A DNA stretch of 64,000 nucleotides from Acidobacteriota bacterium (GTDB lineage Bacteria > Pseudomonadota > Alphaproteobacteria > Acetobacterales > Acetobacteraceae), in NCBI GenBank assembly GCA_903970435.1, contig CAJCIS010000289.1:1-64000 (forward strand), read 5' to 3'. Position 1 is the first letter of the stretch. Each line of letters starts with the position of its first letter. The position numbers and the translations under genes were made by a program. The notes under the pieces are model-generated. The model was not told the origin of the DNA, ran no database searches, and was given only the letters and a program-made list of their open reading frames with translations. Shown here piece after piece: positions 26,932 to 49,858 of the stretch.

Positions 26932-26976
26932 GGAAGGAAGCAGTTCTTTTTTGAAAAAAAGAACCAAAAAACTTTT
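26930..26976 (+). repeat. AT palindromic repeat, single forward arm on the hflC stop
   Basis: T/A-type arm whose AAGGAAG end shares bases with the hflC TAA stop codon. It lies between hflC and the convergent esterase gene. Confidence 0.95.
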
Positions 26977-27003
26977 GTCTGTCCAGCACGCCCTACAGCC
27001 GCT

Positions 27004-32328: not shown

Positions 32329-32658
32329 CTGCCCGACAAATACGCGTACACGCCCCAACTAGCGGTTGAGAAATCACCGGCGATTCCAGGCCATAACGGC
32401 GGGCGCATCCGACAGTTCCTGAGTCTGTCATTCCCTCTCGCATTCATTACGCTATCGCCGTTCGTTTTTATGTCGACCCGCCAAATGGGCGCACGAAGAC
32501 GTGAACATTGCCGACGGTTCCGACGCATCGAAGAAACCCGAACAAGCATTAGGTTCGCAGCCAAGTTGCATGGAGATCCTAATGATAGCAGTTGCATGGC
32601 CAGGTGTTGGCGATCGCCGACCCGATGGGGTGCCAGAATCCAGAACCGGGAGATCTCA
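32329..32658. other. Gene-free leader region of the Tat-exported SDR gene
   Basis: About 330 bp with no supported gene. It should carry the promoter of the SDR operon. The frame of the SDR stays open upstream, but its residues there are Arg-rich and unlike the family, so I read it as non-coding. Confidence 0.5.
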
Positions 32659-33726
32659 GTGACCGGCACGATCGAGAAGCATGACGCCCTGCGGCGCGGC
32701 CTTGTCATGGGTGGCGGATTGGCGGCCGGCCTGGCCATGGCCAATGCGGCAAGTGCGGCAACGGCGACGTCAACACTTGAAATGCAGACGCAAGATGCGC
32801 CGCGCACATTGGACGGTAATTCGGTGCCGGAACCGCCGCCGGAGAAATCGGCGGGTCCGGTACGGCCGGGGCGCGGATCGATGCTAACTGGCAAGGTTGC
32901 CGTGGTTACAGGCGCCGCACGCGGTATTGGCCGTGCCATTGCCGTGGAGTTTGCGGCCAACGGCGCCGACGTGGTTGCCGTCGATATTGCAGGCCCTGTC
33001 AGCCCCGCTTCGAACGCGGAACCGGCGACGCCGGACGAACTCGCCGATACGGTTCGGCAGATCAAACAATATGGCCGCCGCGGAGAGGCGATTCGTGCCG
33101 ATATCCGCGACATCGCGGCGCTGCGCCGTGTCGCCGATCAGGTCCAGACCACCTATGGCAAAATCGATATTGTCGTGGCCGATGCGGCCATTCAGCGATG
33201 GATGCCGTTGCTGGACATGCAGGATAGTGATTGGCACGACGTCATCGACAACAACCTCAATGGCACGGCCAACACCATTCGCGCATTTGCGCCCAAGATG
33301 GTGGCGCAAAAAAATGGCCGGATTATTGTGCTGTCCTCGATGCAGGGTCTGCATGGAACGAAGGACGCGTCCAGCTATTCGGCGTCGAAGTGGGGAATCA
33401 TCGGCCTGATGAAGTCGGCGGCTTTGGAGCTGGGTCAGTATAATATTACAGTCAACGCGCTCATACCGGGGTTGGTCGACACGGCGCTGACACGCTACTA
33501 TAAACGTCTGAGCGAAACCATGGCGGAAACGGGTCGCAAGCCGCCGGAGAAACCGACGCCGCAAGAAGCGTGGGATGTGCGGGCACCGACCGTTGCGCTC
33601 AAGGTTGGCTGGTTGCAGCCGGATGACATTTCGCCGGCAGCGGTGTTTCTGGCGTCCGACGCAGCCGCCATGGTAACCGGCGCCGAATATCAGGTGACCG
33701 GCGGTGACAGCGCGAAGGACGTTTGA
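32659..33726 (+). CDS. SDR family oxidoreductase with Tat signal
   Basis: A 355-residue short-chain dehydrogenase. Near the N-terminus, RRGLVMGGGLAAGLAMANAA (from residue 12) looks like a twin-arginine signal, followed by a Pro/Glu linker. The Rossmann fold starts MLTGKVAVVTGAARGIGRAI (about 75). The catalytic Ser is in VLSSMQG and the Tyr/Lys in SSYSASKWG (about 240). TALTRYYKRL and DISPAAVFLASDAAAMVTGA complete the fold. It oxidises or reduces an unknown alcohol/carbonyl with NAD(P). Export of an SDR is unusual, since NAD(P) must be acquired before translocation. GGGAG before the GTG at 32659 supports this start. Confidence 0.85.
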   Translation: MTGTIEKHDALRRGLVMGGGLAAGLAMANAASAATATSTLEMQTQDAPRTLDGNSVPEPPPEKSAGPVRPGRGSMLTGKVAVVTGAARGIGRAIAVEFAANGADVVAVDIAGPVSPASNAEPATPDELADTVRQIKQYGRRGEAIRADIRDIAALRRVADQVQTTYGKIDIVVADAAIQRWMPLLDMQDSDWHDVIDNNLNGTANTIRAFAPKMVAQKNGRIIVLSSMQGLHGTKDASSYSASKWGIIGLMKSAALELGQYNITVNALIPGLVDTALTRYYKRLSETMAETGRKPPEKPTPQEAWDVRAPTVALKVGWLQPDDISPAAVFLASDAAAMVTGAEYQVTGGDSAKDV

Positions 33727-33743
33727 ACAGGAAAGGATGTTCA

Positions 33744-33850
33744 GACTTTTGCCCCGGCACCTGCACAAACGTTGGGGTTATGGCCCATAGGCTGGGGATT
33801 GCATCAGGAGAAGTCTTTTGGTTCTTTTCCTCAGAAAAGAACTGCTTCCT
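33744..33850. repeat. AT palindromic repeat, C/G-type core and reverse arm
   Basis: Only the last bases of a left arm remain (GACTTTTGC at 33745-33753). The diverged core fills 33754-33808 and the reverse arm 33809-33850. It lies between the two SDR genes. Confidence 0.9.
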
Positions 33851-33927
33851 TGCTTTTTTTCAGCTTTTTTTCAGCCAGACACTCAGCCGCCGCCCGCGGA
33901 ACGTCGGGCGTTCAAGGAGAGGCACCA

Positions 33928-34803
33928 TTGCAGGATCCAACAACAAAATATCCGCGGCCGCCCTATCAGAGGCAGTCACAACCCTGGCCTGGCCTCGCCG
34001 GCAAGATGAACCCGCCGCCCGACCACGGCGAAACGACTTATCGCGGATCGGGCCGGTTGCTTGGTCGAAAGGCTCTGATAACCGGCGGCGATTCCGGTAT
34101 GGGCCGCGCCGCGGCGATTGCATTCGCGCGCGAAGGCGCCGATGTCGCCATCAACTATCTTCCGGCCGAGGAAGAGGATGCGCGCGAGGTCATTGCCCTC
34201 ATCCGGCAGGCGGGGCGAACCGGTTTGGCGCTACCGGGTGATATCCGCGAGGAGGCATTCTGCCAGGAGCTTGTTGCAGAAGCGGTGCGCGGCCTCGGCG
34301 GGTTGAACATTGTGGTGAGCAATGCGGGACGCCAGCAGACACATCCCTCAATACTCGACATTTCCACCGAGGAATTCGATGCGACCATAAAGACGAACAT
34401 CTATGCACCGTTCTGGATCATCAAGGCGGCGCTGCCGCATCTGCCACCCGGCTCCACGATTATCGGCACCACATCGGAGCAGGCTTATGATCCCACGCCG
34501 GATTTGTACGACTACGCGCAGACCAAGGCCGCGACGATGAATTACGTGAAATCACTCGCCAAGCAGTTGGCGCCGAAAGGAATTCGCGTGAATGGCGTGG
34601 CGCCCGGCCCGATCTGGACACCGTTGCAGGTTTCCGGCGGTGCCACGCAGGAAAAGCTGGAACATTTCGGTGGTCAGACGCCGCTGGGCCGCGCCGGGCA
34701 GCCGGCCGAACTCGCATCGATCTACGTTCAACTTGCCGCCGACGATGGCAGCTTTGCGACCGGGCAGGTGTATGGCTCGGCCGGCGGGAGCGGGCAGCCT
34801 TGA
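33928..34803 (+). CDS. SDR family oxidoreductase (YghA/YhxD-like)
   Basis: A 291-residue short-chain dehydrogenase of the longer type with an N-terminal extension (YPRPPYQRQSQPWPGLAGKM and NPPPDHGE), typical of the YghA/YhxD group. Cofactor loop TGGDSGMGRAAAIAFA (about 52), catalytic Ser in GTTSEQ, Tyr/Lys in DYAQTKAATMNYVKSL (about 195), and PGPIWTPLQVSGG. It is predicted to be a cytoplasmic NAD(P)-dependent alcohol/aldehyde reductase, substrate unknown. AAGGAGAGG before the TTG at 33928 defines the start; the open frame upstream crosses an AT repeat and is not coding. Confidence 0.9.
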   Translation: MQDPTTKYPRPPYQRQSQPWPGLAGKMNPPPDHGETTYRGSGRLLGRKALITGGDSGMGRAAAIAFAREGADVAINYLPAEEEDAREVIALIRQAGRTGLALPGDIREEAFCQELVAEAVRGLGGLNIVVSNAGRQQTHPSILDISTEEFDATIKTNIYAPFWIIKAALPHLPPGSTIIGTTSEQAYDPTPDLYDYAQTKAATMNYVKSLAKQLAPKGIRVNGVAPGPIWTPLQVSGGATQEKLEHFGGQTPLGRAGQPAELASIYVQLAADDGSFATGQVYGSAGGSGQP

Positions 34804-34821: not shown

Positions 34822-34870
34822 TAAGGAAGGAAGTATTTCTTTTTTGAAAAAAAGAAACAAGAAACTTTTT
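34822..34870 (+). repeat. AT palindromic repeat, single forward arm
   Basis: TTTC/GAAA-closed stem with AAACAAGAAACTTTT tail. Last well-preserved copy before a repeat-poor stretch of about 18.6 kb. Confidence 0.93.
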
Positions 34871-34940
34871 TATTATGGAGTTTGAGGACCCCCTGGCATT
34901 TTTCTCAATCCGGCGCCATGGTGCCAGGGGAGGCAAAACC

Positions 34941-36428: not shown

Positions 36429-37478
36429 ATGCCGGACCATCCTTATTATTCACAGGCTCTGCATGGTCCGTTCGAAACCTATGCGCTCGGCAATTTTTTG
36501 CTCGAAGACGGCAGCACGCTTCGCGACTGCATGCTGGCTTATGCCATTTTCGGTGAATTGTCGGCCGCCCGAGACAACGCCATTCTGGTGACCACCTGGT
36601 TCTCCGGCACCTCAAAAATTATGGAGCAAGCCTATATTGGCGCCGGGCGTGCTTTAGATCCCAGCAAATACTTCATTATCGTCGTCAATCAGATCGGCAA
36701 TGGACTTTCGACATCGCCGCACAACGTGCCGGCGCCGTTCGGAGGCCCCAATTTTCCGCATGTAGGCGTCCCGGACGACGTTATTGCCCAACGCCGTCTG
36801 CTGACGGAAAGGTTTGGCATAGACCGTTTGGCTCTGGTAACCGGCGCCTCGATGGGAGCCCAACAAACCTATGAATGGGCCGTGAGATTCCCGGACATGG
36901 TCGCGCGCGCGGCGCCCATCGCCGGCACGGCCCGCACCACCGCCCATTGCAAGCTATTCGCGCAAGCCTTGATGGATGCGCTGACATCCGATCCTGGATG
37001 GGCGGGTGGCTGGTATGAAACACAAGCTGCGATGCGCCAGGGGCTGCACATGCATGCGCGGTTGTGGGCCCTGATGGGCGCCAACCCGTCCATGTATTCG
37101 CAAGAATTATGGCGGGGTCTCGGCTTTTCCTCGGTCGAGGACTTCGTCCTTGGCCTGCTCGATGCGTCGTTCCTGCCTCTGGACGCGAATTCGTTGCTTG
37201 TTCAAGGCAGGAAGTGGCAGCATGCCGATGTCGCGCGGCCATACGGCGGCGACCTGGCCGCGGCACTCGGCCGTATCAAGGCAAGAACCTGCGTTATGCC
37301 CGTCAGCACCGACATGTTCTTCACCGTAGCAGATTGCGCGGCCGAACAGCGGCTCGTTCCTACAAGCCAACTATGTGTGCTGGAGACAGCATGGGGCCAT
37401 TTGGGCGTCATGGGCATGGACCGTGCCTACCTTGCCCAGGTTGACGCAGCCTTGATGGCTCTGCTCGCGGCCGATTAG
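36429..37478 (+). CDS. Alpha/beta hydrolase, MetX (homoserine acetyltransferase)-like
   Basis: A 349-residue alpha/beta-fold protein. The nucleophile elbow is TGASMGAQQTYEWAVRFPDMV (about 138). The upstream FIIVVNQIGNGLSTSPHN and the late VMPVSTDMFFTVADC and TAWGHLGVMG match the MetX-like group, where Asp and His complete the triad. Known relatives are homoserine O-acetyltransferases and esterases with this fold. Because it directly follows a Baeyer-Villiger-type monooxygenase, an esterase role on the lactone or ester product is more likely than methionine synthesis; this is inference. No signal peptide. Confidence 0.85.
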   Translation: MPDHPYYSQALHGPFETYALGNFLLEDGSTLRDCMLAYAIFGELSAARDNAILVTTWFSGTSKIMEQAYIGAGRALDPSKYFIIVVNQIGNGLSTSPHNVPAPFGGPNFPHVGVPDDVIAQRRLLTERFGIDRLALVTGASMGAQQTYEWAVRFPDMVARAAPIAGTARTTAHCKLFAQALMDALTSDPGWAGGWYETQAAMRQGLHMHARLWALMGANPSMYSQELWRGLGFSSVEDFVLGLLDASFLPLDANSLLVQGRKWQHADVARPYGGDLAAALGRIKARTCVMPVSTDMFFTVADCAAEQRLVPTSQLCVLETAWGHLGVMGMDRAYLAQVDAALMALLAAD

Positions 37479-37672
37479 CGCGACACATCGGCCGTGCAAT
37501 GGTATGCAGGCTGGCATTGCACCCTTTCCGATTGAAGCGATTACGCATCGGCACCCGCGCCGTCCGCGGCCCCGATAGGGCGACAGCTAGGACCCACAAC
37601 GTGCCTGGCACGCGGAACCAGACAATGATCAAGACGTTATAAGGGCGGGCGGCACAGGCTGGAGCGACAGGT

Positions 37673-38218
37673 TTGATAGGATACCGTAACCTGCCGAATT
37701 CGGTGCGTTCCCCTGGCGACCGCATCGATATTGCCACGCACGAGGGCTTTATGCGGCGCGCCATCCAGCTCGCGGAAGGCGGGGATCAGCGCCCGGGTTG
37801 CGGCGCCGTAGGGTGCGTTATCGTGATCGGCGAGCGGATCGTTGGTGAGGCGAGCAATGAAGCGGAATTGCGCCACGATCCTACCGCACATGCGGAGATA
37901 ATGGCGATACGCCGCGCTGCATCGAAGCTTGAAACGACCGAGCTGCGCGGCGCCACGCTCTACTCGACCTTGCAGCCGTGCGGCATGTGCTCGATGGCAT
38001 CGATCTGGGCGCGCATAGGATGTATTGTGTTTGGTGCCGGCCGGCATGAGGTGCACGCTTCCTATTTCGAGGGACGCCATCTGAACACCATCGACTTCAT
38101 CAATGATGCGTTTCGCGATGACCTTGAGGTGGTGCCCGGCATATTAGGTCAGCAATGTGCAACACTTTATTACGGGCCGCATGATAAGGTTCCACTTGCC
38201 GAGCAGACCAATGTCTAA
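37673..38218 (+). CDS. Nucleoside/cytosine-type deaminase
   Basis: A 181-residue zinc deaminase of the CDA fold. The catalytic motif is TAHAEIMAIRRA (about 71) and the zinc cysteines are in LQPCGMCSMASIWARI (about 101-105), followed by IGCIVFGA. The C-terminus (ASYFEGRHLNTIDFINDAF) is not that of tRNA adenosine deaminase, so the substrate is open: guanine, cytosine or a small amine heterocycle. A TTG at 37673 with GGAG upstream is my start; GTG at 37703 or ATG at 37751 are alternatives. It is the first gene of a tight five-gene run in which the next gene overlaps its stop. Confidence 0.82.
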   Translation: MIGYRNLPNSVRSPGDRIDIATHEGFMRRAIQLAEGGDQRPGCGAVGCVIVIGERIVGEASNEAELRHDPTAHAEIMAIRRAASKLETTELRGATLYSTLQPCGMCSMASIWARIGCIVFGAGRHEVHASYFEGRHLNTIDFINDAFRDDLEVVPGILGQQCATLYYGPHDKVPLAEQTNV

Positions 38219-39365
38219 CAGAACGCCGATGCAAGCCTCTCGCATGGCGTCGCAGATGCCGCGGGGTCCCGCTGCGCAGCCGCGGGTCGTCGTTGCGATA
38301 CCTGTGCGTAATGAAGAAGCGTATATCGTACCCTGCCTGCGCGCGTTGGACGCCCAGGCGGGTGCCGCACCAGACCGCATTGTGCTGCTGCTCAATTGTT
38401 GCACAGACCGCACGGCATCCAATGTGAGGAGATTGGCGCCTGAGCTTTCGACGGCAGTCGATATCATTGAGCGCAATTTGCGTGGCAGCCAGGCAACGGC
38501 CGGTTTCGCGCGTAGTTTGGCCATGCGTTACGCCGCCGATCCTCTTGCCGATCATGATGTTCTCATGACAACCGACGCGGACGCAATCGTGGCGCCCAAT
38601 TGGATCGCCGCTAACCTGGCTGCCTTGAACAACGGCGCCGATGCGGTGTGCGGCCGCGCGATGCTGAACCCGCGCGATGCGCATCTCATTCCGGCTCATT
38701 TGCATGAGGACGATGCAAGGGAACGCCGCCTTGCGAGCCTGCTCGACGAAATTGCGTCGGTGCTCGATCCCGACCCCTTCGACCCCTGGCCAAGGCATTG
38801 CGAGGATTCCGGTGCCAGCATTTCGGTGAGCGTGCTTGCCTGGCGGCGCGCGGGGGGAATACCCTGCGTGCCATGCGGCGAGGACCGCGCTTTCATTACG
38901 AAATTGCGAAATATCGATTTGCGTGTCCGCCACGAACCGGATGCTTTCGTTACCGTATCAGGTCGTACGCAAGGGCGCGCAAGTGGCGGCATGGCCGACA
39001 CGATCCGTCGCCGCCTGATACAACAAGACGAGTTCACCGACGCGTCGCTGGAGCCCGCCACGGACCGCTACCGACGCCTTTTGTTACGAAATGCAGCGCG
39101 CAGGCTGTGGGTCGACCGGCGTGCCAGTATTGACGCGCTCATGGAAGCATTTGAGCTGCCGCCGAGAGCGTTTCGCGCAGCGCTCGGTGCGCCGTTTTTT
39201 GGCCAGGCCTGGGCGATGCTGGAACGCGCCAGCCCAGTGCTCGGCGCACGCCGCGTGCGGTTCATTGAACTTGAACACGAAATAGAAGCTGCTGTGCGGC
39301 TTCGTGCGCAGGCCTTTGGCTTGTTGGAGCGCCAGTCTGGCGACCATGAATTGGTAACGGCCTGA
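38211..39365 (+). CDS. Family 2 glycosyltransferase
   Basis: A 384-residue GT-A glycosyltransferase. The fold opens with VVVAIPVRNEEAYIVPCLRAL. The metal/nucleotide-sugar D-x-D-type site is MTTDADAIVAPNWIAANLAA (near 125). The acceptor region SGASISVSVLAWRRAGGIPCVPCGEDRAF carries the ED motif of GT2 enzymes. No transmembrane helices, so it is cytosolic and not a NodC-type synthase. The ATG at 38211 overlaps the deaminase stop. The next gene starts 1 bp after its stop, and the operon continues with acyl-CoA-dehydrogenase-like, PIG-L and NodS-like genes, suggesting stepwise building of a modified amino-sugar compound. Confidence 0.87.
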   Translation: MSNRTPMQASRMASQMPRGPAAQPRVVVAIPVRNEEAYIVPCLRALDAQAGAAPDRIVLLLNCCTDRTASNVRRLAPELSTAVDIIERNLRGSQATAGFARSLAMRYAADPLADHDVLMTTDADAIVAPNWIAANLAALNNGADAVCGRAMLNPRDAHLIPAHLHEDDARERRLASLLDEIASVLDPDPFDPWPRHCEDSGASISVSVLAWRRAGGIPCVPCGEDRAFITKLRNIDLRVRHEPDAFVTVSGRTQGRASGGMADTIRRRLIQQDEFTDASLEPATDRYRRLLLRNAARRLWVDRRASIDALMEAFELPPRAFRAALGAPFFGQAWAMLERASPVLGARRVRFIELEHEIEAAVRLRAQAFGLLERQSGDHELVTA

Positions 39366-39366
39366 C

Positions 39367-40503
39367 GTGCGCATGGATGCGGCCGACACCGTCGAGGAAG
39401 CCGTCGCTGCCCTGCTCACCCGCATGGCGCCATTATTGGCCGCCAGCCGCGACCACGCGCAGAAATTGGACGCGGAGGGGGTATTCGCAAGCGACGATCT
39501 GGCCGCGCTGACCCGGGCCGGCATACTTGCCGCGGCCGTGCCAACACTGATGGGTGGTCTCGGGATCGGAACAGAACCGGCGCGGGCAGTTGCCACCGCC
39601 GAACTTCTCCATTCTGTCGGCAGCGGCAGCATCGCGCTCGGCAGGATTATCGAGGGGCACATCAATGCAGTCCGGCTCGTCATACGAAACGGCAACGAGG
39701 CGCAGCGCGTGGCCACCGCCGAGGACGCAAGAGCAGGCCATCTGCATGCTTTGTGGGTAACCGACGGACCGGAGGCACTTCGCTACATCCACATTGCGAA
39801 TGGCATCGAATTGAGCGGCGAGAAATTGTTTTGCTCCGCAGCAGGACATGCAACCCGCGCGGTCGTGACAGCAATGGGCCCGGACGGTGAGCGCCGCCTG
39901 TTGTTGCTTACCATGCGGCAAGGGGAGGAAATACATCACTTGCCGGCCGGCCTTCAGGGCGTTCGCAGCGCTGGCACTGGCCGTGTCGTATTCAATGGAG
40001 TACGTCATGGAAGCGCAACGATATTTGGCGCGCCCGGGGCCTACCTTCGCGAACCTGAGTTCTCCGCGGGCGCATGGCGCGCCTCGGCAGTCACGGCCGG
40101 CGCATTGTCCGCGCTGGTGGATGCGGCGCGGGCAGAACTCGTTTCGCGCAACCGCGCCGCCAATCCGGAGCAGCGCCAGAGACTTGGGCGGATGTATATC
40201 AACGCCGAAACCGCGCGTCTGTGGACACTGGGCGCCTGTTCATTCGGCGAAGATGCCGACGCCAAAGCCGAACGAGCGACCGCTATGGTGAATCTGGCAC
40301 GTATTGCCATCGAAGCCGCATGCATGGATACTATTCAGTTGGTGCAACGATCGCTTGGGTTGTCGGCTTTTGTGCAAGCCAACCCGGTGGAACGAATGTG
40401 CCGCGACTTGGCAACCTATTTGCGCCAACCCGCCCCGGATGAGGCGCTTAGCGAAGCCGCCGCCTATTTCACCGATCATCCCCTCATTGCTGGTTGGGAT
40501 TAA
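39367..40503 (+). CDS. Acyl-CoA dehydrogenase-like flavoprotein
   Basis: A 378-residue protein with the acyl-CoA dehydrogenase architecture. An N-terminal helical domain (LDAEGVFASDDLAALTRAGI, VPTLMGGLGIG) is followed by a central beta-domain with IELSGEKLFCSAAGHATRAVV and GRVVFNGVRHGSATIFG. The C-terminal four-helix bundle includes DTIQLVQRSLGLSAF and the late CRDLATYLRQPAPDEALSEAA. The usual catalytic Glu region is not obvious, so it may be a dehydrogenase-like monooxygenase (DszC type) or an inactive relative. The start is GTG at 39367 or ATG at 39373. Its stop overlaps the PIG-L start (TAATG). Confidence 0.8.
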   Translation: MRMDAADTVEEAVAALLTRMAPLLAASRDHAQKLDAEGVFASDDLAALTRAGILAAAVPTLMGGLGIGTEPARAVATAELLHSVGSGSIALGRIIEGHINAVRLVIRNGNEAQRVATAEDARAGHLHALWVTDGPEALRYIHIANGIELSGEKLFCSAAGHATRAVVTAMGPDGERRLLLLTMRQGEEIHHLPAGLQGVRSAGTGRVVFNGVRHGSATIFGAPGAYLREPEFSAGAWRASAVTAGALSALVDAARAELVSRNRAANPEQRQRLGRMYINAETARLWTLGACSFGEDADAKAERATAMVNLARIAIEAACMDTIQLVQRSLGLSAFVQANPVERMCRDLATYLRQPAPDEALSEAAAYFTDHPLIAGWD

Positions 40504-41231
40504 TGCGCGCCGGCGACATTCAAGTGGCCTGGGCAGAGCTGCCGATGGGGAACATTGAGGCCATTTTCGGGACTGGCAGAACCCTTGTATTGGCGCCGCA
40601 CCCTGATGACGAAAGCCTTGGCTGCGGCGGAATGATTGCGGAACTTTGCCGCCAGGGCAGGCCGCCGCGCGTGATTGTACTTACCGATGGAACTGGTTCA
40701 CATAGCGGATCGGTCGCCACCAATGCGCCGGCACTGCGCCGCATTCGTGAGCGTGAGGCAATTGAAGCGCTGAGCCATCTGGGGCTCAGGCCGCCCGAGG
40801 CGCCAGTGTTCATGCGTCTGCGAGACACCGCTGCACCGCACCGCGGATCGATGTTCGAGGTTGCGGTAGCGCGCCTGTGCGCGCTCGCGGCCGATTGTGA
40901 TACGATATGTGCGACCTGGAGCCACGACCCGCATTGTGATCACACCGCCGCTCACCTCATGGCGTTGGCCGTCGCGGCACAGACGGGATGCCGACATGTT
41001 GCTTATCCGGTATGGGGATGGACCTTGCCCGCGGATGCGCAATTACCCGATCGGCAGGTTGGCGGGTGGCGCCTGGATATTTCGGCCGTATTGGATAACA
41101 AACAATCGGCGATCGCTGCACATCGCTCGCAGCATGGCGGTTTGATCGGCGACGATCCGAACGGTTTTGTTCTGCCGGCTGCGCTGCTGGCTATAGCTGC
41201 GCGGCCGTATGAGGTGTTTCTTCGACCATGA
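40503..41231 (+). CDS. PIG-L/LmbE family N-deacetylase
   Basis: A 242-residue zinc deacetylase of the PIG-L family, which removes acetyl from N-acetylglucosamine-type groups (as in mycothiol, bacillithiol and GPI synthesis). The zinc motif is LVLAPHPDDESLGCGG (about 29-44). The second metal-ligand motif is SHDPHCDHTAAH (about 139). GVIVLTDGTGS-like residues (VIVLTDGTGSHSGS) contact the sugar. The ATG at 40503 overlaps the preceding stop, and its own stop overlaps the next start (ATGA), so translation is coupled throughout. In context it should deacetylate the product of the GT2 enzyme; this is inference. Confidence 0.9.
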   Translation: MRAGDIQVAWAELPMGNIEAIFGTGRTLVLAPHPDDESLGCGGMIAELCRQGRPPRVIVLTDGTGSHSGSVATNAPALRRIREREAIEALSHLGLRPPEAPVFMRLRDTAAPHRGSMFEVAVARLCALAADCDTICATWSHDPHCDHTAAHLMALAVAAQTGCRHVAYPVWGWTLPADAQLPDRQVGGWRLDISAVLDNKQSAIAAHRSQHGGLIGDDPNGFVLPAALLAIAARPYEVFLRP

Positions 41232-41806
41232 CGCAAGCGCCGCTGTCCCGCGGACGATCGCATTTTGAGCGCATCTATGCAAGCGCCGAAGATCCGTGGA
41301 ATTTCCGGTCCAGCAAGTACGAGCGCGAGAAATATGACGCCACCATCGCCGCGTTGCCAAGGCCTAAGTTTCAGGCGGGCCTGGAGGTTGGTTGCTCGAT
41401 AGGCGAATTGACGCGACTTCTGGCGGAACGTTGCGAGTCATTGCTGGGTGTTGACACAGTCGCCGCGCCCTTGAAAATTGCCGGGGCGCGATGTGCCGGG
41501 CTGCCGCACGTGCGATTCGCGCAAATGCATGTTCCTGCCACGTGGCCAGAGGGTCTATTCGATCTGGTTGTACTTTCGGAGGTGCTTTACTTCCTTACAC
41601 CAAACGATATTTCCGCGCTTGCAGCACGCGTGAACGCTAGCCTTCGTAACGAAGCGGTGGTCGTTTTGGTGAATTGGCTTGGGCGTACGGACGATCCGTG
41701 CTCGGGAGACGAGGCGGCGGAGAGGTTCATCGCATCCCTGCCGAAGCTGCGAACCGGATTGCAGCGAAGGCAGAGCCGCTACCGGATTGATGTGTTGATC
41801 CGCTAG
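41228..41806 (+). CDS. NodS-like SAM-dependent methyltransferase
   Basis: A 192-residue class I methyltransferase of the NodS type (PF05401-like). The N-terminus HFERIYASAEDPWNFRSSKYE is characteristic. The SAM motif is LEVGCSIGELTRLLA (about 50), followed by LLGVDTVAAPL and FDLVVLSEVLYFL. NodS N-methylates a freed amino group of chitooligosaccharides after deacetylation. Here the gene follows a PIG-L deacetylase with a 4-bp overlap, which fits N-methylation of the deacetylated sugar amine. No nodABC genes are present, so the natural product is not a Nod factor on current evidence. Last gene of the operon. Confidence 0.88.
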   Translation: MTQAPLSRGRSHFERIYASAEDPWNFRSSKYEREKYDATIAALPRPKFQAGLEVGCSIGELTRLLAERCESLLGVDTVAAPLKIAGARCAGLPHVRFAQMHVPATWPEGLFDLVVLSEVLYFLTPNDISALAARVNASLRNEAVVVLVNWLGRTDDPCSGDEAAERFIASLPKLRTGLQRRQSRYRIDVLIR

Positions 41807-41910: not shown

Positions 41911-41947
41911 ACAGTTCTTTTTTGAAAGCAGAACCAAAGAACTTTCT
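41911..41947 (+). repeat. AT palindromic repeat, degenerate forward arm
   Basis: CAGTTCTTTTTTGAAAGCAGAACCAAAGAAC resembles an arm with a disrupted stem. It is the only copy within the repeat-poor block 34.9-53.5 kb and lies just beyond the stop of the TetR-type gene. Confidence 0.75.
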
Positions 41948-41949
41948 CT

Positions 41950-43029
41950 TTAGGTGACCTTCAGGTTGAAATTGTTTTCGAAGGCGGCGAAGCGGGTTTC
42001 GATATCTTCAACGCAAAGGACCGATTCCTGTGAGACTCGCTTGCTGGGCATGATGAATATTCTGCGCCTTTCCGGCGCAGCCGCTGGCAGCAGCACAACC
42101 GCCACCCAGTCGCTCTGCGCGGGATCGCAATTAAACACCATTGCCTTGCCGAACGCGGCAAGCAATCCTCTTACCGAAATTCGTTGGGGAGCGCCGTTGG
42201 GCTGCTGCGCCAAAACATTGTAGCCCGGCCAAGACTCCGTTGTCTTCATGGCAGGCACGCCCGCAAAGGTCAGTTCGCCTGCTACCAGCATGGCGCACGC
42301 GTTATCCATGCGCATGCATTCATCATGAGGCATTGTCGCAATTGGGCCGCTTCCGGAAAACTGCGGTGGCGCCGCCGTCGAACCGAACTGCACCGGAAAC
42401 ACCGAACGCAAATACGCAACACAGCGCAGGCGGGCGCCCGGCCGATCCAACTCTGCCTCATCGTGGAAAGCTATCTCCTGCCAGATCATCTCCAGCGCGC
42501 CAATCAGCCCCAATGCAACGCCATCCGCGTCGAGATGGAGAGCCTGATTTTGCAGGATCAGCCTTTGCACCAGGTCAAGCACCAGATCGGCGAACGCCTC
42601 GTCGCGCTTGCCGCAAATGGAATAATATTCAGAACGCGCGCTCGCCTCACCCCAAAACGCATACCACACCGAAACCTTCCGCGGGCTGGCAATGTCGGGA
42701 TCTAGATACAAATCGATCAACCGCAGCAGCGCCACTTCCGGACGGTCGCGCAACGCCTGAAGCGGCGCCAACACCCGTTCCTCAAACTCATCGGCCAGGA
42801 ATTCCAGCGCGGCTACCAGCAACGCTGCCTTCGTTTCAAAATAAAAGTTTACGATGCCGGGAGACATATCGGCAATCGCCACGACCTTGTCAATCGTTGT
42901 GCGCGAGGGGCCATGCTGATACAGCGCAGAAATGCACGCATCGACCAATTTCTGCCGCTGCCGCACACGCGACAATTTCTCTCCCGCCTTTGCGAGCGAG
43001 TTCGTGTCGGGTTTTTCAAAAGGCATCAT
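41950..43029 (-). CDS. TetR/AcrR regulator (BetI-like) with long C-terminal extension
   Basis: A 359-residue regulator. The N-terminal helix-turn-helix is TTIDKVVAIADMSPGIVNFYFETKAALL (about 43-70). The ligand-binding part to about residue 210 follows the BetI pattern (WYAFWGEASARSEYYSICGKRDEAF), which in relatives senses choline or related amines. About 140 further residues (GPIATMPHDECMRMDNACAM to the end) are not part of a normal 190-215-residue TetR protein and resemble nothing I can name. It probably represses the adjoining transporter and catabolic genes. The ATG at 43029 or the adjacent one at 43026 is the likely start. Confidence 0.85.
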   Translation of the reverse strand: MMPFEKPDTNSLAKAGEKLSRVRQRQKLVDACISALYQHGPSRTTIDKVVAIADMSPGIVNFYFETKAALLVAALEFLADEFEERVLAPLQALRDRPEVALLRLIDLYLDPDIASPRKVSVWYAFWGEASARSEYYSICGKRDEAFADLVLDLVQRLILQNQALHLDADGVALGLIGALEMIWQEIAFHDEAELDRPGARLRCVAYLRSVFPVQFGSTAAPPQFSGSGPIATMPHDECMRMDNACAMLVAGELTFAGVPAMKTTESWPGYNVLAQQPNGAPQRISVRGLLAAFGKAMVFNCDPAQSDWVAVVLLPAAAPERRRIFIMPSKRVSQESVLCVEDIETRFAAFENNFNLKVT

Positions 43030-43125
43030 GCAGCCGCGCAAGCCTCAGGGGAGCCTGTTATCATGGCGCCAAGCGCTGTAACGGACAAGACGTGCACACG
43101 CGGTGCTGGTATCCCGAAATGCCTG

Positions 43126-44220
43126 CTATTCCCCTGTCTTGATGCGGGTCCAGGCCCGCGTGCGCAACCGTTCCACCGCCGGGCTCACCTCGTCGGATTC
43201 GTACAGGCGGCCCATCATCGCTTGCGTCGGGTAGATTGCCGGATTGTGCAAAATGGCCGGCAGAACGAACGGATCGGCTGCAGTATTATTGTTGCCGTAA
43301 TGGATTTCGTTGGTAGTGGCCGCAATCACTTTCGGGTCAAGCATGTAATTGAGGAATTTATACGCCGCCTCCTTGTGCGGTGCGCCATTTGGAACCAGCC
43401 ACGCATCATACCAGATATTGGCGCCTTCCCTGGGTACCGTGAAAGCCAGATCGATGTTCACACCCGCCGCCTTTGCCCGCGCCTCCGCCGTCTCGAAATC
43501 GCCAGACCAAGACATGGCAATACACAGATCCTTGTTCGGCAGCGCGTTCATGAAGCCCTCGGAATCGAAGGTCCGTACATAAGGCCGCACCGCGAGCAGC
43601 AATGCCTCGGCCGACTTGAAATCCTCCGGCTTCTGCGTATTTGGATCGAGATGCAGATAATTCAGCGCCAATTGCAGCACATCCTCCGCGTTGTCCATGA
43701 AGCTCACGCCGCAATCTGCGAACTTCGATATGATTTCAGGTTTGAACACCATATCCAGGCTGTCGACCGGTGCATTCGGCATGCGCGTCTTGATCATATC
43801 GATATTATACGCAAACCCGTTGACCCCGTGCAGGTAAGGTACCGCATGCGCATTGCCGGGGTCGAACCGCGCCATTACCGCAAGGATAGCCGGATCCAAA
43901 TTCTTCCAATTCGGCAGCTTGCTCCGGTCCAACGTTTCATACACGCCCGCCTTGATCTGGCGCGCAAAAAAATCGGTCGACGTCGTAACCACATCGTAGC
44001 CCGACTCGCCGGCCATCACTTTCGCTTCGAGCCCCGCGTCGGAATCGTACGTATCATAAACAACATTGATTCCGGTCAGCTTCTGGAAATCTGCGACCGT
44101 GTTCTTGCCAATATAGTCCGCCCAGTTATAGACATTCAGTTGCGAGTCCTCTGCCACGGCCGGCGCCGCCAAAGCCGCCAGCATCGCGCAACCAAAAGCC
44201 GCCCACACTGTTTTCCGCAT
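43126..44220 (-). CDS. Polyamine-type ABC transporter substrate-binding protein (PotF-like)
   Basis: A 364-residue periplasmic binding protein of the spermidine/putrescine family. Signal peptide MRKTVWAAFGCAMLAALAAP, then the family start QLNVYNWADYIGKNTVADFQ. YDTYDSDAGLEAKVMAGESGYDVV, VPYLHGVNGFAYN and ANIWYDAWLVPNGAPHKEAAYKFLNYML are all PotF/PotD signatures. It delivers a cationic amine to the PotG/H/I-like parts encoded at 45906 and 51784-53525. It runs leftwards toward the regulator gene and is divergent from the aldehyde dehydrogenase gene. Confidence 0.93.
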   Translation of the reverse strand: MRKTVWAAFGCAMLAALAAPAVAEDSQLNVYNWADYIGKNTVADFQKLTGINVVYDTYDSDAGLEAKVMAGESGYDVVTTSTDFFARQIKAGVYETLDRSKLPNWKNLDPAILAVMARFDPGNAHAVPYLHGVNGFAYNIDMIKTRMPNAPVDSLDMVFKPEIISKFADCGVSFMDNAEDVLQLALNYLHLDPNTQKPEDFKSAEALLLAVRPYVRTFDSEGFMNALPNKDLCIAMSWSGDFETAEARAKAAGVNIDLAFTVPREGANIWYDAWLVPNGAPHKEAAYKFLNYMLDPKVIAATTNEIHYGNNNTAADPFVLPAILHNPAIYPTQAMMGRLYESDEVSPAVERLRTRAWTRIKTGE

Positions 44221-44290
44221 CGTTGAACCTCGCCGCCCGCGCTCATTGGCGGGACCCTAGCGACAAATGCTATGGGACGAAGCCGTTTCC

Positions 44291-44307
44291 CGCAATGCCG
44301 CATTGCG
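44291..44307. promoter_or_regulatory. 17-bp palindrome in a divergent promoter region
   Basis: CGCAATGC-C-GCATTGCG is a perfect 8-bp inverted repeat around one base. It lies 71 bp upstream of the binding-protein start and 86 bp upstream of the chosen aldehyde dehydrogenase start. Size and position suit a TetR-family operator, and a TetR-type gene is one gene away. Confidence 0.5.
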
Positions 44308-44392
44308 TCATGCCTACGCCGCAATTTGTCATGCCGACTGCCAGTGCTTCTCTGTAATGATCTACTTCGCCACTCCCATCCGGACGACCAAA

Positions 44393-45832
44393 ATGCCCGA
44401 CGCCATGCAGTTCTATGTCAACGGCGTCTGGGTCGATCCCATCTCGCCCAACCGGCGCGACGTGATAGATCCATCCACCGGAACGCCAATCGGCCAAGTG
44501 GCACTGGCCGGCGCCGCCGACGTGGATCGGGCCGTCACCGCCGCGCGCGCCGCATTTCCTGCATTCGCCGCCACACCGCGCGCGGAGCGCCTGGCGCTGT
44601 TGCGTCGTATCACCGAACTTTACGCCGCCCGCATGCCGGATATCGCCGACAGCGTCATGCGCGAATTGGGGGCGCCACGCGCCTATGCGCACGACACCCA
44701 GGCATGGATCGGCCTCGCCCATCTCGAAAAGGCGGTTGAAACTCTGGAACATTATCGTTTCGAGGAAATGCGCGGCGGGACACTCGTCGCCCGCGAGCCC
44801 GCCGGTGTGGCGGGCTTGATTACGCCATGGAATTGGCCGCTCAATCAAATTATCTGCAAGGTTGCACCTGCGCTGGCTACCGGCTGTACCATGGTTCTCA
44901 AGCCCAGCGAAAATACCCCGACGAACGCGGTGTTGTTCGCCGAGATCCTGCATGACGCAGGCGTGCCTCCGGGCGTATTCAACCTCATTCAAGGGGAGGG
45001 GCCGGTTGCCGGCCGCGAATTGGCCGCGCATCCTGACATCGACCTGATTTCCTTTACCGGATCCACGCGCGCGGGCATCGATGTCGCAACAACTGCGGCG
45101 CCCACGGTCAAGCGCGTGCTGCAGGAACTCGGCGGCAAATCCCCTTTCATTGTTCTGCCGGATGCCGATCTCGCCGTCGCCGTGGCCAGTTGTGCTGCCA
45201 CGGTTTTCGGCAACACGGGCCAGTCCTGCGACTCTCCGACGCGCCTGCTGGTTCCGCGAAATCGCCAGGCTGAGGCTCAGTCCCTGGCACGCCAGGCGGC
45301 GCTCGCCTGTCGCGTCGGCAACCCCGCCGATGCCGAAACAACCATGGGGCCGGTGGTCAGCGAACGTCAATTCAACCACGTCCAGCGGTTGCTGCAAGCC
45401 GGCGTGGCGGAGGGCGCCACCCTGGTCACCGGCGGCCCCGGCCGCCCGCCTGGCCTCAACCGCGGCTATTTTGTTCAGCCAACCGTCTTCGGGGACGTGA
45501 AGCTGGATATGACCATCGCGCAGGATGAAATCTTTGGCCCCGTCATATGCATCATTTCGTACGATGATGAAGCGGACGCTATCCGCAAGGGCAACGACAC
45601 CCCATACGGCCTCGCCGCGTATATACATGGCAAGGACATGGAACGCGTGCGACGCGTCGCACGCGCCTTGCGCGCCGGCATGGTTGCATTGAACGATCCG
45701 CCGCTCGATCTCGGCGCCCCCTTTGGCGGCTACAAGCAATCCGGCAACGGCCGCGAATACGCCGATTTCGGTTTCGATGATTTCACGGAAATAAAAGGCA
45801 TGATTGGCTATGCGTCGGCCAGCGGGGGTTGA
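44393..45832 (+). CDS. NAD(P)-dependent aldehyde dehydrogenase
   Basis: A 479-residue ALDH-superfamily enzyme of usual length. Conserved residues: the oxyanion Asn in ITPWNWPLNQI, the general base Glu in LQELGGKSPFIVLPDADL (about 243), the nucleophile Cys in NTGQSCDSPTRLLVP (about 278), and EIFGPVICI. The SCDSPTR variant resembles aminoaldehyde/betaine-aldehyde-like or broad-range ALDHs. It probably oxidises the aldehyde made by amine oxidation in this cluster. The start is uncertain: ATG at 44393 or 44405, neither with a strong ribosome site. Confidence 0.92.
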   Translation: MPDAMQFYVNGVWVDPISPNRRDVIDPSTGTPIGQVALAGAADVDRAVTAARAAFPAFAATPRAERLALLRRITELYAARMPDIADSVMRELGAPRAYAHDTQAWIGLAHLEKAVETLEHYRFEEMRGGTLVAREPAGVAGLITPWNWPLNQIICKVAPALATGCTMVLKPSENTPTNAVLFAEILHDAGVPPGVFNLIQGEGPVAGRELAAHPDIDLISFTGSTRAGIDVATTAAPTVKRVLQELGGKSPFIVLPDADLAVAVASCAATVFGNTGQSCDSPTRLLVPRNRQAEAQSLARQAALACRVGNPADAETTMGPVVSERQFNHVQRLLQAGVAEGATLVTGGPGRPPGLNRGYFVQPTVFGDVKLDMTIAQDEIFGPVICIISYDDEADAIRKGNDTPYGLAAYIHGKDMERVRRVARALRAGMVALNDPPLDLGAPFGGYKQSGNGREYADFGFDDFTEIKGMIGYASASGG

Positions 45833-45905
45833 TCGTGCCGGTTATGCGCGCCGCACCCGATGGCGAAACTCGGCTAAGGGAGCAACAGCTGTGGTCCCGC
45901 GTGGA

Positions 45906-47051
45906 TCAGGATTGCAATAAAATAGCAGCATCGGCGGCAAAGCACGCATAGACCTCATCACTCCAGTCGATTGACCATTCCGCAGTCCGCCTTACATTGG
46001 GTGCACTCGCCACCAGCAACTTGCCACAATCCGTCTTTACCCGATACACGGAATGGTTGCCCAAATATCCAAGCTCCCACACCACGCCCTTGATGCAATT
46101 CATCCCTGCCTCTGTCACCGGCGCCTTGCTCAACATAATCTTCTCGGGCCGCACAGCCACGCACACAAGCTGCCCCACGCTGAACCGTCCGCGATTGTCA
46201 ACCATGAGATCCGACTCCATTTCCGCACTGCGAACGGTAATCCGCCCGGCATCACACGCGGTAATGGTCGATTCGAACAGATTGGTTGAACCCACGAAGT
46301 TCGCTACAAACCGGCTTTGCGGAAACTCATACACCTCCGCCGGTGTCCCCACCTGCACCACCCGGCCACGATCCATCACGGCGATACGGGTAGAAAGCGC
46401 CATCGCCTCCTCCTGATCATGGGTCACGATGACGAACGTAATGCCGACTTTGTATTGAATATTCATAAGCTCGAACTGGGTCTGCTCGCGTAATTTTTTA
46501 TCGAGCGCGCTCAGCGGCTCGTCCAGCAACAGCACCTTCGGCCGCCGTATCAATGCCCGCGCAAGCGTCACGCGCTGACGTTGTCCACCCGATAGCTGAT
46601 GCGGCCTGCGCCCCGCTAAGTTGCCGAGTTGCACCATTTCCAGCGCTTCCTCGATTTGTCGTTTTCGTTCGGCTTCCGCCATCGGCATACGGCGCAGCCC
46701 ATACCCTACGTTCTTCTCCACACTCATGTGCGGAAACAAGGCGTAGCTCTGGAACATCATGTTCACCGGGCGGGCATGAGGCGGTACGTTCTTCATGTCG
46801 GCATCGTCGATCATGATGCGGCCCGCGCTTGGCTCGGTGAATCCCGCCAGCATTCGCAACAATGTTGTCTTCCCGCAGCCCGAACCACCCACAAGCGCGA
46901 ACATCTCCCCCTTATGGATTTTTAAATTTACGCCATCCACCGCCTTCACATGATCATAGGCCTTGCTGACATTGTCGATTACGATCTGCGGCACCGCCTG
47001 TGGGTCCAACCACGGCCGATCGGCAAGCGCCTTTTGCAGGTCGGATATCAT
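45906..47051 (-). CDS. Polyamine-type ABC transporter ATPase (PotA/PotG-like)
   Basis: A 381-residue ABC ATPase. Walker A GGSGCGKTTLLRML, Q-loop MMFQSYALFPHMSV, signature LSGGQRQRVTLARALI, Walker B LLLDEPLSALDKKLRE and H-loop VIVTHDQEEAM, followed by a C-terminal TOBE-type domain (SVGQLVCVAVRPEKIMLS). It energises import with the permeases at 51784-53525 and the binding protein at 43126. Last gene of a leftward run of four (two flavoproteins, the GcvT-like protein, then this), 40 bp after the GcvT-like stop. Confidence 0.94.
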   Translation of the reverse strand: MISDLQKALADRPWLDPQAVPQIVIDNVSKAYDHVKAVDGVNLKIHKGEMFALVGGSGCGKTTLLRMLAGFTEPSAGRIMIDDADMKNVPPHARPVNMMFQSYALFPHMSVEKNVGYGLRRMPMAEAERKRQIEEALEMVQLGNLAGRRPHQLSGGQRQRVTLARALIRRPKVLLLDEPLSALDKKLREQTQFELMNIQYKVGITFVIVTHDQEEAMALSTRIAVMDRGRVVQVGTPAEVYEFPQSRFVANFVGSTNLFESTITACDAGRITVRSAEMESDLMVDNRGRFSVGQLVCVAVRPEKIMLSKAPVTEAGMNCIKGVVWELGYLGNHSVYRVKTDCGKLLVASAPNVRRTAEWSIDWSDEVYACFAADAAILLQS

Positions 47052-47091
47052 TTGTCAGGCCACCCAAATGACGTCATTGCCCCTGCTTTCG

Positions 47092-48300
47092 TTACCGATC
47101 CCAAGCTGGAGTGACCTTCCGCCGGGCGGGCGCATAGAACGGCTTTTCGACCACCACTCCCCGCGCTACCCGCCGTTCCCATTCCAACTCCCGGCACAGA
47201 TAAATTTCCGCCCAAACCTGCCGCCCTGTCTCGAAATAGGGCGCATCCACCAATCCCAAGGCAATGTTGCGCTTGCACGTCGGCGACCACAAGGCCGAAC
47301 TGATCGCACCGATCTCCCGTCGGCACGATTTATCCGCGTATAGTAGCGCCTTCAGGGCGGGTTTGTTCCCGTCTATATCCAACCCCACCAGGCGCCGCGC
47401 GGCGCCGCGCTTTTGTTCCGCCACCAGTGCGCGCCGCCCATTGAAGTGGCCTTTCTTCAGGTCCACGAGCCATTCCAGCCCCAACTCAAATGGCGACCGC
47501 CCCCGCCCGATCCTGACGCTCGCTTCAGCCGGCACGAAATCGATGTTCGGCATGATGAAGCCAGCCTCGATTCGCGCCATATCCAGCGCCTGGGATCCGA
47601 TTGGCCGGATCCCGCTTGATGCGCCAGCAATCATCAGCCGATCCCAGACAGAAACCGCATCGGCCGGTGTCATCCAAAGCTCGTAGCCGAGGTCACCGGT
47701 AAATCCCGTGCGCGACACAGTCATGTCCGCGCCACCCAAAACAAATCGTCCGATATCGAACGGTCGCAACCGCTCGACACCTCGTAAGCCCAATGCCTTC
47801 AATACGGCACAGGATGTCGGTCCCTGCAGAGACAAGGCTGCGATCGACTCGGTCACCTCCTCCACCGCAACATCGAAACCTATTGCGCTATCAAGTAACC
47901 AATCCAATTGCCGTGCTGCCGTGCATAGAAGAAACTCGCCCGTCTCCAGTCGAAAAATTGTGCCGTCATCAATCAAGTGGCCGTCATCGTTGCACCACAC
48001 GCTGTAAGCCACGCGCCCCGGTTTCACGCGACGCACATCGCGGGTCACCAGGCGGTTCAGATAATTCTCTGCATCCTTTCCTGTGATCCGGTATTTTACC
48101 ATCGGCGTCAGATCGTAGACCGAACAGGCATTGCGTATTGCAAAATACTCCTGTTCAACGGTCGTATAAACATCGACCGTTGTGTAGCCTGCCCATGCGA
48201 CGAATTGGTCGACCGTGCTGCACGCGCGCGTCCGCGAATGAAACGGCGTTGTCAGCAATGGTTGCTTGAAATGCGGAGGACGGTTGGCAGCATCGCTCAT
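47092..48300 (-). CDS. GcvT/DmdA-like folate-dependent aminomethyltransferase or demethylase
   Basis: A 402-residue protein of the glycine-cleavage T family. VYDLTPMVKYRITGKDAENYLNRLVTRDV, VWCNDDGHLIDDGTIFRLE, LSLQGPTSCAVL, SRTGFTGDLGYELWM and LDMARIEAGF are GcvT-family signatures, and a C-terminal barrel-type domain follows. No GcvH or GcvP is nearby, so a stand-alone tetrahydrofolate demethylase (as in DmdA or methylated-amine breakdown) is more likely than glycine cleavage. It starts 1 bp after the stop of the preceding flavoprotein gene, indicating coupled expression. The substrate is inferred to be a methylated amine taken up by the adjacent importer. Confidence 0.88.
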   Translation of the reverse strand: MSDAANRPPHFKQPLLTTPFHSRTRACSTVDQFVAWAGYTTVDVYTTVEQEYFAIRNACSVYDLTPMVKYRITGKDAENYLNRLVTRDVRRVKPGRVAYSVWCNDDGHLIDDGTIFRLETGEFLLCTAARQLDWLLDSAIGFDVAVEEVTESIAALSLQGPTSCAVLKALGLRGVERLRPFDIGRFVLGGADMTVSRTGFTGDLGYELWMTPADAVSVWDRLMIAGASSGIRPIGSQALDMARIEAGFIMPNIDFVPAEASVRIGRGRSPFELGLEWLVDLKKGHFNGRRALVAEQKRGAARRLVGLDIDGNKPALKALLYADKSCRREIGAISSALWSPTCKRNIALGLVDAPYFETGRQVWAEIYLCRELEWERRVARGVVVEKPFYAPARRKVTPAWDR

Positions 48301-48301
48301 T

Positions 48302-49858
48302 TCATGCCGCCTTCTTCAGCACCTGTCGCGCCGCGTTCCGGCCGCCCAAACCCATCACGCCTCCACCGGGATGAGAGCCGGCGCCACACAGGAAGAATCC
48401 CTCCAGCGGCGACTCGTATTGCGTGGCCCCGGGCACCGGGCGCACCATGAAGAATTGGTCGAACGCCAATTCACCATGGTGCCAATGGCCGCCTGAAATT
48501 CCGAACTCCGTTTCAATATCAGCCGGAGTCAGCAATTCGGCGGCAATAATCAACCCACGCAACCCTGGCGCATAGGTCTCGATGGTCTCGATAATCCTGT
48601 CCAGAAAATTCTGTTTCACCGCGCTCCATCCATCTGTGTGCGAATACGGCGCATATTGCACAACTGCGGACAACACGTGCTGCGCGGCCGGCGCCATGGT
48701 TGCGTCGCTAGCAGTCGGCACCACAATCTCCATGGCGGGCGATGCCGAATAATCGCCATATTTCGTTGCGTTGAACGCAGTCTCGACGTAGCTCAATGAA
48801 GGTGCGATAATCATCCGGCTACGCAAGCCAGCTAAAGCCAGATCACGGAACGGCGGCGCCGCCGACAACGCCAGATGCACCTTAGCCGTGAGTCCGCGCT
48901 GCCTGAAATGATCAATACGGCGCACGAACCCCGTATCAAGATGCTCCGCGCCAAGCAGATTTAGGAAAGTCGTGCGTGGGTCGGCGTTCGAGATGACGTG
49001 GCGTCCCGCAATTGTCTCGCCGTCCGCCAGCAGCACGCCGACGGCCCGATCATCGCGTACAGCGACCCGGGCGACCCGGGCGGCGACACGAATTTCAGCG
49101 CCGGCCGCCTGTGCCGCCGCCGCCAGTGCGTCGCTGACGGTGCCCATCCCTCCCCTTGGCTGCGCCATCGCGGCGCCACACGCTCCACTTTCCGCCGCCA
49201 GTCGATACAAAAACGTCAGCACCGTACCCGGCGAGCGCGGCCCGAAATTGGTGCCGAGAACGGCATCGAAGGCTACCGCAGCGCGCAGCGCCGGGGAAGC
49301 AAAACATTCCTCTACAAGATCGTACATGTTCATGCCAATGATGCGCAGCAAATCGCGCATGCCGGTGCGCCCCAGGCTACGTATTTCCCACGCCAGCCGC
49401 AGAAGGGCGCCATTATCGGCGGCGGTGCCGGTGCCCAGACGCGGTGGCGTCCGGCTCAACATTGGCCGCAAATGCGCTGCGAATCGACGCATCCGGGCCA
49501 TGAATGTGCTATATGCGGTCACATCCTCCCCGGACAAACCGCCATTCACGCGCGCGGGTAGCCGCAAATGTGGGCCATCCGCCGCGAGCGAAATCGTCGG
49601 CATCGCCTCAGCGGCGAACACCAAACCGTGCCGTATCAATCCAAGATCGGTGATAATGTCTTGCGGCATCTGGTGCAGCAAATGCGCGCAAGCCGAAACC
49701 TTGAATCCCGGCGCAAAGCTGCGTGTGACCGCGGCGCCGCCCACGCGATCAGCGGCCTCCAGCACCAGTACGCGCTTGCCTGCCCGTGCCAAATAGGCAG
49801 CGCAGGTCAGGCCATTGTGTCCACCCCCAATGACTATGGAATGATATGGCGCAGTCAA
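48302..49858 (-). CDS. PYROXD2/phytoene-desaturase-like FAD oxidoreductase (first copy)
   Basis: A 518-residue flavoprotein. The dinucleotide site is VIGGGHNGLTCAAYLARAGKRVLVLEAAD at the N-terminus. ARVARVAVRDDRAVGVLLADGE and HVISNADPRTTFLNLLG are CrtI/PYROXD2 features. The C-terminal SPLEGFFLCGAGSHPGGGVMGLGGRNAARQVL binds FAD. Relatives desaturate carotenoids, or have unknown roles (PYROXD2). No carotenoid genes are present, so an amine or other small-molecule oxidation is more plausible. Its ATG overlaps the stop of the second copy by 4 bp. Confidence 0.88.
   Translation of the reverse strand: MTAPYHSIVIGGGHNGLTCAAYLARAGKRVLVLEAADRVGGAAVTRSFAPGFKVSACAHLLHQMPQDIITDLGLIRHGLVFAAEAMPTISLAADGPHLRLPARVNGGLSGEDVTAYSTFMARMRRFAAHLRPMLSRTPPRLGTGTAADNGALLRLAWEIRSLGRTGMRDLLRIIGMNMYDLVEECFASPALRAAVAFDAVLGTNFGPRSPGTVLTFLYRLAAESGACGAAMAQPRGGMGTVSDALAAAAQAAGAEIRVAARVARVAVRDDRAVGVLLADGETIAGRHVISNADPRTTFLNLLGAEHLDTGFVRRIDHFRQRGLTAKVHLALSAAPPFRDLALAGLRSRMIIAPSLSYVETAFNATKYGDYSASPAMEIVVPTASDATMAPAAQHVLSAVVQYAPYSHTDGWSAVKQNFLDRIIETIETYAPGLRGLIIAAELLTPADIETEFGISGGHWHHGELAFDQFFMVRPVPGATQYESPLEGFFLCGAGSHPGGGVMGLGGRNAARQVLKKAA

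Follow-up and report, generated by a model that had tools for sequence, protein, structure and literature searches.

A widely shared four-gene cassette, here under a predicted EcfG promoter, and its candidate N-methylated amino-sugar product

We analysed a 64,000-nucleotide stretch of an Acetobacteraceae contig (CAJCIS010000289.1, positions 1 to 64,000; hereafter the window) which carries, on the forward strand, five genes identified by profile matches as encoding a deaminase, a GT2 glycosyltransferase, an acyl-CoA-dehydrogenase-like flavoprotein, a PIG-L deacetylase and a NodS-like methyltransferase, in that order. We lean towards the interpretation that the last four represent a widely shared cassette, controlled in this genome together with the deaminase gene by the sigma factor EcfG, which makes a protective N-methylated amino-sugar compound. 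Conservation across phyla, a promoter motif and the genes that recur beside the cassette carry this interpretation, in which each catalytic step and its place in the order, the substrate and the protective role are inferred.

Conservation of the four-gene cassette

The conserved unit consists of the GT2 glycosyltransferase, the acyl-CoA-dehydrogenase-fold flavoprotein, PIG-L and the NodS-like methyltransferase. We assembled 103 loci from PIG-L searches (of the host's family and of a collection of named genomes) and from a flavoprotein search in plasmids, and found the flavoprotein, PIG-L and methyltransferase genes together in 78 of these fetched loci, 70 of which also contain the GT2 gene, whose position varies: it may come first, last or convergent on the opposite strand, as in Komagataeibacter and cyanobacteria. 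Cassettes occur in Alpha-, Beta- and Gammaproteobacteria, Cyanobacteria, Bacteroidota, Verrucomicrobiota and Deinococcota, with hosts among Acetobacteraceae, Methylobacteriaceae, Sphingomonadales, Rhodobacterales, Bradyrhizobium, Variovorax, Cupriavidus, Pseudomonas, Acinetobacter, many cyanobacteria, Hymenobacter and other Bacteroidota, Verrucomicrobiota and Deinococcus. The first-pass annotation of this DNA had taken all five genes as one unit and had allowed that they might rarely co-occur elsewhere; co-occurrence proved to be wide across phyla, with the last four genes as the recurrent unit and the deaminase outside it. Only three other loci, all alphaproteobacterial (L109, L126 and the divergent L030), have a related deaminase close to the cassette; the deaminase is an occasional partner, not part of the core.

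To avoid circularity, we ran the flavoprotein profile, rather than that of PIG-L, on 289 genomes of the class. The scores were two-peaked, with five genomes, including the present one, above 300 bits and the rest at or below 105 bits; over the family, cassette members score about 290–460 bits and ordinary members at most 105 bits. The methyltransferase gene is adjacent in all five high-scoring genomes and the PIG-L and GT2 genes in four of the five, while none of three ordinary homologues inspected has cassette genes next to it. With five clear members among 289 genomes, the distribution of the cassette in the class is therefore patchy. Where PIG-L occurs with no flavoprotein beside it, 12 of 17 genomes (largely Methylobacterium) encode the cassette flavoprotein elsewhere, which supports, short of proving, a gene-to-gene dependence, these genomes being related and having a base rate above that of the class. 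Viral contigs yielded no relatives of the cassette flavoprotein.

Within the window, all four junctions were confirmed by reading the sequence, bearing out the earlier description of genes joined by overlaps or 1-bp gaps: the deaminase stop codon (38216–38218) and the GT2 ATG (38211) overlap by 8 bp, a single base separates the GT2 stop (39365) from the flavoprotein GTG (39367), the flavoprotein TAA (40501–40503) and the PIG-L ATG (40503) have one base in common, and the PIG-L TGA (41229–41231) and methyltransferase ATG (41228) overlap by 4 bp. The identities and order of the five genes also stood, whereas the proposed extent of 36429–41806 did not, since position 36429 begins a MetX-like hydrolase gene and the operon spans 37673–41806.

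Predicted EcfG control and stress-gene neighbours

The sequence GGAACCAGACAATGATCAAGACGTT is a perfect GGAAC-N16-CGTT box (Table 1) located 34 bp 5′ of the first start codon of the operon, within the 194 bp that lie between the MetX-like hydrolase gene and the first start codon of the deaminase gene. In the form GGAAC-N16/17-CGTT, this motif marks promoters read by EcfG, the general stress sigma factor (PMC6599016). In the window alone the pattern is not rare (two found, 1.07 expected in shuffles), and the box draws its weight from its placement and from comparisons across the genome and other loci. Genome-wide, the pattern occurs at 47 sites, counting both strands; at that density, the expected number of correctly oriented boxes within 150 bp of any one gene is about 0.0008. 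A reversed control pattern occurs 116 times, a difference that suggests avoidance of stray boxes in this genome. NepR and PhyR-type matches occur together on one of its contigs (C40).

Comparison with other alphaproteobacterial loci gave a strict box in 8 of 43 cassette GT2 upstream regions versus 4 of 345 flanking genes; the box lies 85–128 bp before the conserved domain in seven of the eight boxed GT2 genes and 151 bp before it in the remaining one. Reversed, complemented and antisense control patterns were all absent upstream of cassette GT2 genes in Alphaproteobacteria, and 66 upstream regions from loci outside this class contained no strict box. Relaxing the last element brought the count to 11 of 43 GT2 and 5 of 52 flavoprotein upstream regions. 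A scan of the region for sigma-70 promoters and terminators stayed at chance level. Judging from the promoter motif, the operon, deaminase gene included, is probably switched on by EcfG here.

Among the scanned genome loci, 10 of 60 full cassettes have a catalase gene no more than about 8 kb away, as against none of 19 other PIG-L loci. The class background is 16 full-length catalase matches in 96 genomes of roughly 260 Mb (a total estimated from rounded sizes), about 0.06 per Mb, giving an expectation of about 0.05 for the cassette loci (0.9 Mb), a rough yardstick as some loci are not alphaproteobacterial. Ku genes stand beside four cassettes and LigD genes beside five. Plasmid-borne cassettes have Ku/LigD nearby in Bradyrhizobium, catalase and LigD in Novosphingobium, catalase and Dps in Sphingomonas, and catalase in Sulfitobacter; of the other plasmid-borne ones, that of Acinetobacter has the OtsAB trehalose genes nearby and that of Cupriavidus catalase, topoisomerase IB and a protein of the PA2169 family. 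Flanks are mixed in Acetobacteraceae and cyanobacteria. In Sphingomonas melonis, catalases, Ku and topoisomerase IB depend on EcfG (PMC6599016); the cassette goes unnamed in the main text of that paper.

Promoter and neighbourhood together lend support, at the level of sequence, to a stress role, and they move the biological reading from a Nod-factor-like signal to a general stress product. The spread across phyla, the recurrent catalase, Ku/LigD and trehalose neighbours and the stress promoter predicted in Alphaproteobacteria would point to a common protective product. We found no description of the cassette or its product in the literature searched, and a paper on Acinetobacter desiccation (PMC13130816) contains nothing on the cassette.

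Cassette enzymes and candidate product

The GT2 protein has the conserved TTDAD and ED motifs. Its AlphaFold model (predicted local distance difference test, pLDDT, 90.6) shows no obvious membrane part, and a fold search returned the general GT-A answer only. The PIG-L protein has the metal motif APHPDDE ... DPHCDH, with metal ligands H33, D36 and H147 invariant across 13 aligned sequences, and its closest solved structures are diacetylchitobiose deacetylase, TT1542 and BshB. The methyltransferase scores 54.4 bits against PF05401 (gathering cut-off 24), which places it in the NodS superfamily of Pfam, and reaches 63.6 of the 300 bits needed for the NCBIfam NodS equivalog. It carries the motifs DPW, YExxK and SEVxYYL, of which DPW/YE/EVLYYL are common to NodS, and its matches in the PDB include 4isc (9e-55) and NodS 3ofj (3.5e-30). 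The motifs by which the first-pass annotation was checked, the PIG-L metal motif and the NodS-type DPW...YE...EVLYYL motif, are both present. The deaminase falls below the cut-off of the NCBIfam TadA model (97.1 of 150 bits); its possible starts are TTG 37673, GTG 37703 and ATG 37751, with GGAG shortly 5′ of TTG 37673.

The flavoprotein had been suggested to desaturate an acyl part, a role that the replacement of both catalytic glutamate positions and the nearest profiles, those of monooxygenases, speak against. In place of the C-terminal EGT catalytic motif, the whole family has a YLRQPAPD-type segment, which aligns in register with that of a DszC/MsuC-like protein (L135), and the glutamate is also missing at the isovaleryl-CoA dehydrogenase position. 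The best profile match is DszC (7e-29), followed by MsuC (4e-24). A confident model (pLDDT 92.6) has the acyl-CoA dehydrogenase fold and superposes equally on 4iv6 (Z 40.4, root-mean-square deviation 2.5, 359 aligned) and on DszC 3x0y (Z 40.4, deviation 2.3, 356 aligned). Since the fold search gives Z 38–40 for dehydrogenases and monooxygenases alike, the fold does not discriminate; the first Foldseek match is KijD3, an amino-sugar oxygenase, with scores tied. Structural scores being tied, the monooxygenase assignment rests on sequence: the protein is probably a monooxygenase or another non-dehydrogenase, which more likely oxygenates than desaturates, and the annotation of these genes as acyl-CoA dehydrogenases is probably wrong. 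Two Deinococcus loci (L119, 5543–7882; L194, 2860–5208) encode a longer flavoprotein, extended at the N terminus by about 400 residues that match no Pfam family.

In the pathway we envisage, GT2 would add an N-acetylated sugar to an acceptor, PIG-L would then strip the acetyl group, the NodS-like enzyme would methylate the freed amine, and the flavoprotein may oxidise the amine or an adjoining carbon. The product would be an N-methylated amino-sugar compound that protects the cell, whether soluble or bound at the surface. Glycosylation, de-N-acetylation and N-methylation had been proposed in this order before, along with the acyl desaturation that we drop; because the genes co-occur and the PIG-L and NodS motifs are present, deacetylation followed by methylation stays the best chemical guess. 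A natural fusion offers a parallel, as does Nod-factor tailoring: a Sulfitobacter indolifex plasmid protein (L183, 3375–6455) joins GT2, a NodS-like methyltransferase and a polysaccharide deacetylase, and the proposed order is plausible.

Several points weigh against this interpretation. The strict EcfG box is absent from all 66 non-alphaproteobacterial cassette upstream regions and missing from most alphaproteobacterial cassettes, and many loci, including most of those from Acetobacteraceae and cyanobacteria, have no recognised stress genes nearby. The GT2 fold is uninformative on donor or acceptor, PIG-L proteins can cleave non-sugar amides too, and kinship with NodS is no proof of N-methylation.

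Among the alternatives, it is conceivable, though we judge it unlikely, that the cassette modifies an existing surface polymer or lipid (exopolysaccharide, lipopolysaccharide or glycolipid) instead of producing a free small molecule, in which case GT2 would attach a side sugar for subsequent deacetylation and methylation. Some cassettes are flanked by additional glycosyltransferases, such as a GT4 enzyme in Novosphingobium, the Deinococcus cassette lies beside a UDP-galactopyranose mutase and another glycosyltransferase gene, and the structural neighbours of GT2 include wall-teichoic-acid and polysaccharide glycosyltransferases; yet the recurrent flank families include no polymerase, flippase or export gene, and the GT2 model, with no obvious membrane part, does not favour this alternative.

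Within the preferred reading of a protective amino-sugar compound, a more specific and decidedly speculative version would make the product a class of stress protectants shared across phyla, N-methylated amino sugars with a flavoprotein-oxygenated nitrogen (hydroxylamine or nitrone type) that act as radical traps or protective solutes in oxidative stress and drying.

Surrounding window and related systems

Table 1. Coordinates of the operon, its predicted promoter and the upstream neighbour in the window.
Feature	Position	Strand	Evidence
Predicted EcfG promoter: GGAAC (−35), 16-nt spacer, CGTT (−10)	37614..37638	+	exact pattern match
Nucleoside-deaminase-like protein, zinc deaminase fold, TadA/guanine-deaminase-like	37673..38218	+	PF00383, 85.7 bits
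Cassette GT2 glycosyltransferase, GT-A fold	38211..39365	+	PF00535; TTDAD and ED motifs; AlphaFold model
Acyl-CoA-dehydrogenase-fold flavoprotein, cassette-specific subfamily	39367..40503	+	PF02771/PF00441 (weak); DszC/MsuC profiles
PIG-L (LmbE-type) zinc-dependent de-N-acetylase	40503..41231	+	PF02585, 80.5 bits
NodS-like S-adenosylmethionine-dependent methyltransferase	41228..41806	+	PF05401, 54.4 bits
MetX-like alpha/beta hydrolase, upstream neighbour outside the operon proper	36429..37478	+	NF005757, 463 bits

The region 32400–53550, which includes the cassette, looks like an acquired block: its third-position G+C is 0.62–0.75 and its regional G+C near 0.60, versus mostly 0.76–0.88 and 0.64–0.66 elsewhere in the window, and a dispersed 38-nt repeat is nearly absent from 34.9–53.5 kb. 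This intergenic element (GTTCTTTTTTGAAAAAAAGAAC-CAAAAAACTTTT), terminator-like and often at gene ends, has at least 21 copies between 3010 and 60561 (for example 8691–8728, 26941–26978, 34834–34871 and 53530–53567), with a degenerate copy 3′ of the operon at 41912–41949, and about 10 copies of a second, related family run the other way in the window.

Upstream, 32470–34803 encodes two short-chain dehydrogenases, 5′ of monooxygenase and MetX-like genes; the second we take to be similar to general-stress short-chain dehydrogenases. The MetX-like and monooxygenase genes were considered as pathway members and rejected, neither having a relative in any fetched cassette locus. Downstream, 41950–53525 encodes a TetR/BetI-like regulator, a polyamine-type ABC transporter (binding protein, ATPase, two permeases), an aldehyde dehydrogenase, an aminomethyltransferase-like protein and two flavin adenine dinucleotide (FAD) oxidoreductases, and perhaps serves the uptake and breakdown of methylated amines.

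Of known systems, bacillithiol and mycothiol synthesis (BshA/BshB, MshA/MshB) likewise sets a glycosyltransferase before a PIG-L deacetylase and has a stress role. We nevertheless consider it highly improbable that the product here belongs with these glucosamine-based compounds, as a low-molecular-weight thiol or similar redox buffer. The best equivalog matches of PIG-L are BshB1 and BshB2, both sub-threshold (45.0 of the 182.5 bits needed for BshB1), its relatives of solved structure include BshB-type proteins, and catalase and other oxidative-stress genes are neighbours; however, no MshC/BshC-like cysteine ligase was recognised in or beside the examined cassettes, which have a methyltransferase and a flavoprotein instead, the cassette glycosyltransferase is GT2 whereas MshA and BshA are GT4 enzymes, and an N-methyltransferase would presumably block ligation at the same amine.

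In Nod-factor tailoring, a glycosyltransferase (NodC), a de-N-acetylase (NodB) and the NodS methyltransferase act serially on an amino sugar; the cassette resembles it in the three kinds of activity in series and in the DPW/YE/EVLYYL motifs, and differs in its PIG-L in place of the NodB polysaccharide deacetylase, its different GT2 and its added flavoprotein. A Nod-factor-like signal whose acyl part is desaturated by an acyl-CoA dehydrogenase is scarcely credible despite the kinship of the methyltransferase with the NodS family, given the missing catalytic glutamates, a fold of PIG-L unlike that of NodB, zero NodA matches in the genome (in a search without positive control), a predicted regulation by stress rather than plant signalling, and a tree that, on long branches, sets three NodS proteins apart from the cassette methyltransferases as a single group (98/89).

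The group D flavin monooxygenases DszC and MsuC and the nitrososynthases KijD3, ORF36 and DnmZ share with the flavoprotein the fold and the C-terminal segment that replaces the EGT motif, and the substrates of KijD3 and DnmZ are nucleotide amino sugars; identity to the flavoprotein is only about 16–22%, and the cassette has no partner flavin reductase. The trifunctional Sulfitobacter protein unites the same three activities, including a NodS-type methyltransferase domain, in one chain, and differs by its NodB-type deacetylase, its single polypeptide and its lack of a flavoprotein. Finally, the predicted regulation of the cassette resembles that of the EcfG regulon in its promoter motif, and the catalase, Ku and topoisomerase IB genes found beside cassettes are members of that regulon in S. 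melonis (PMC6599016).

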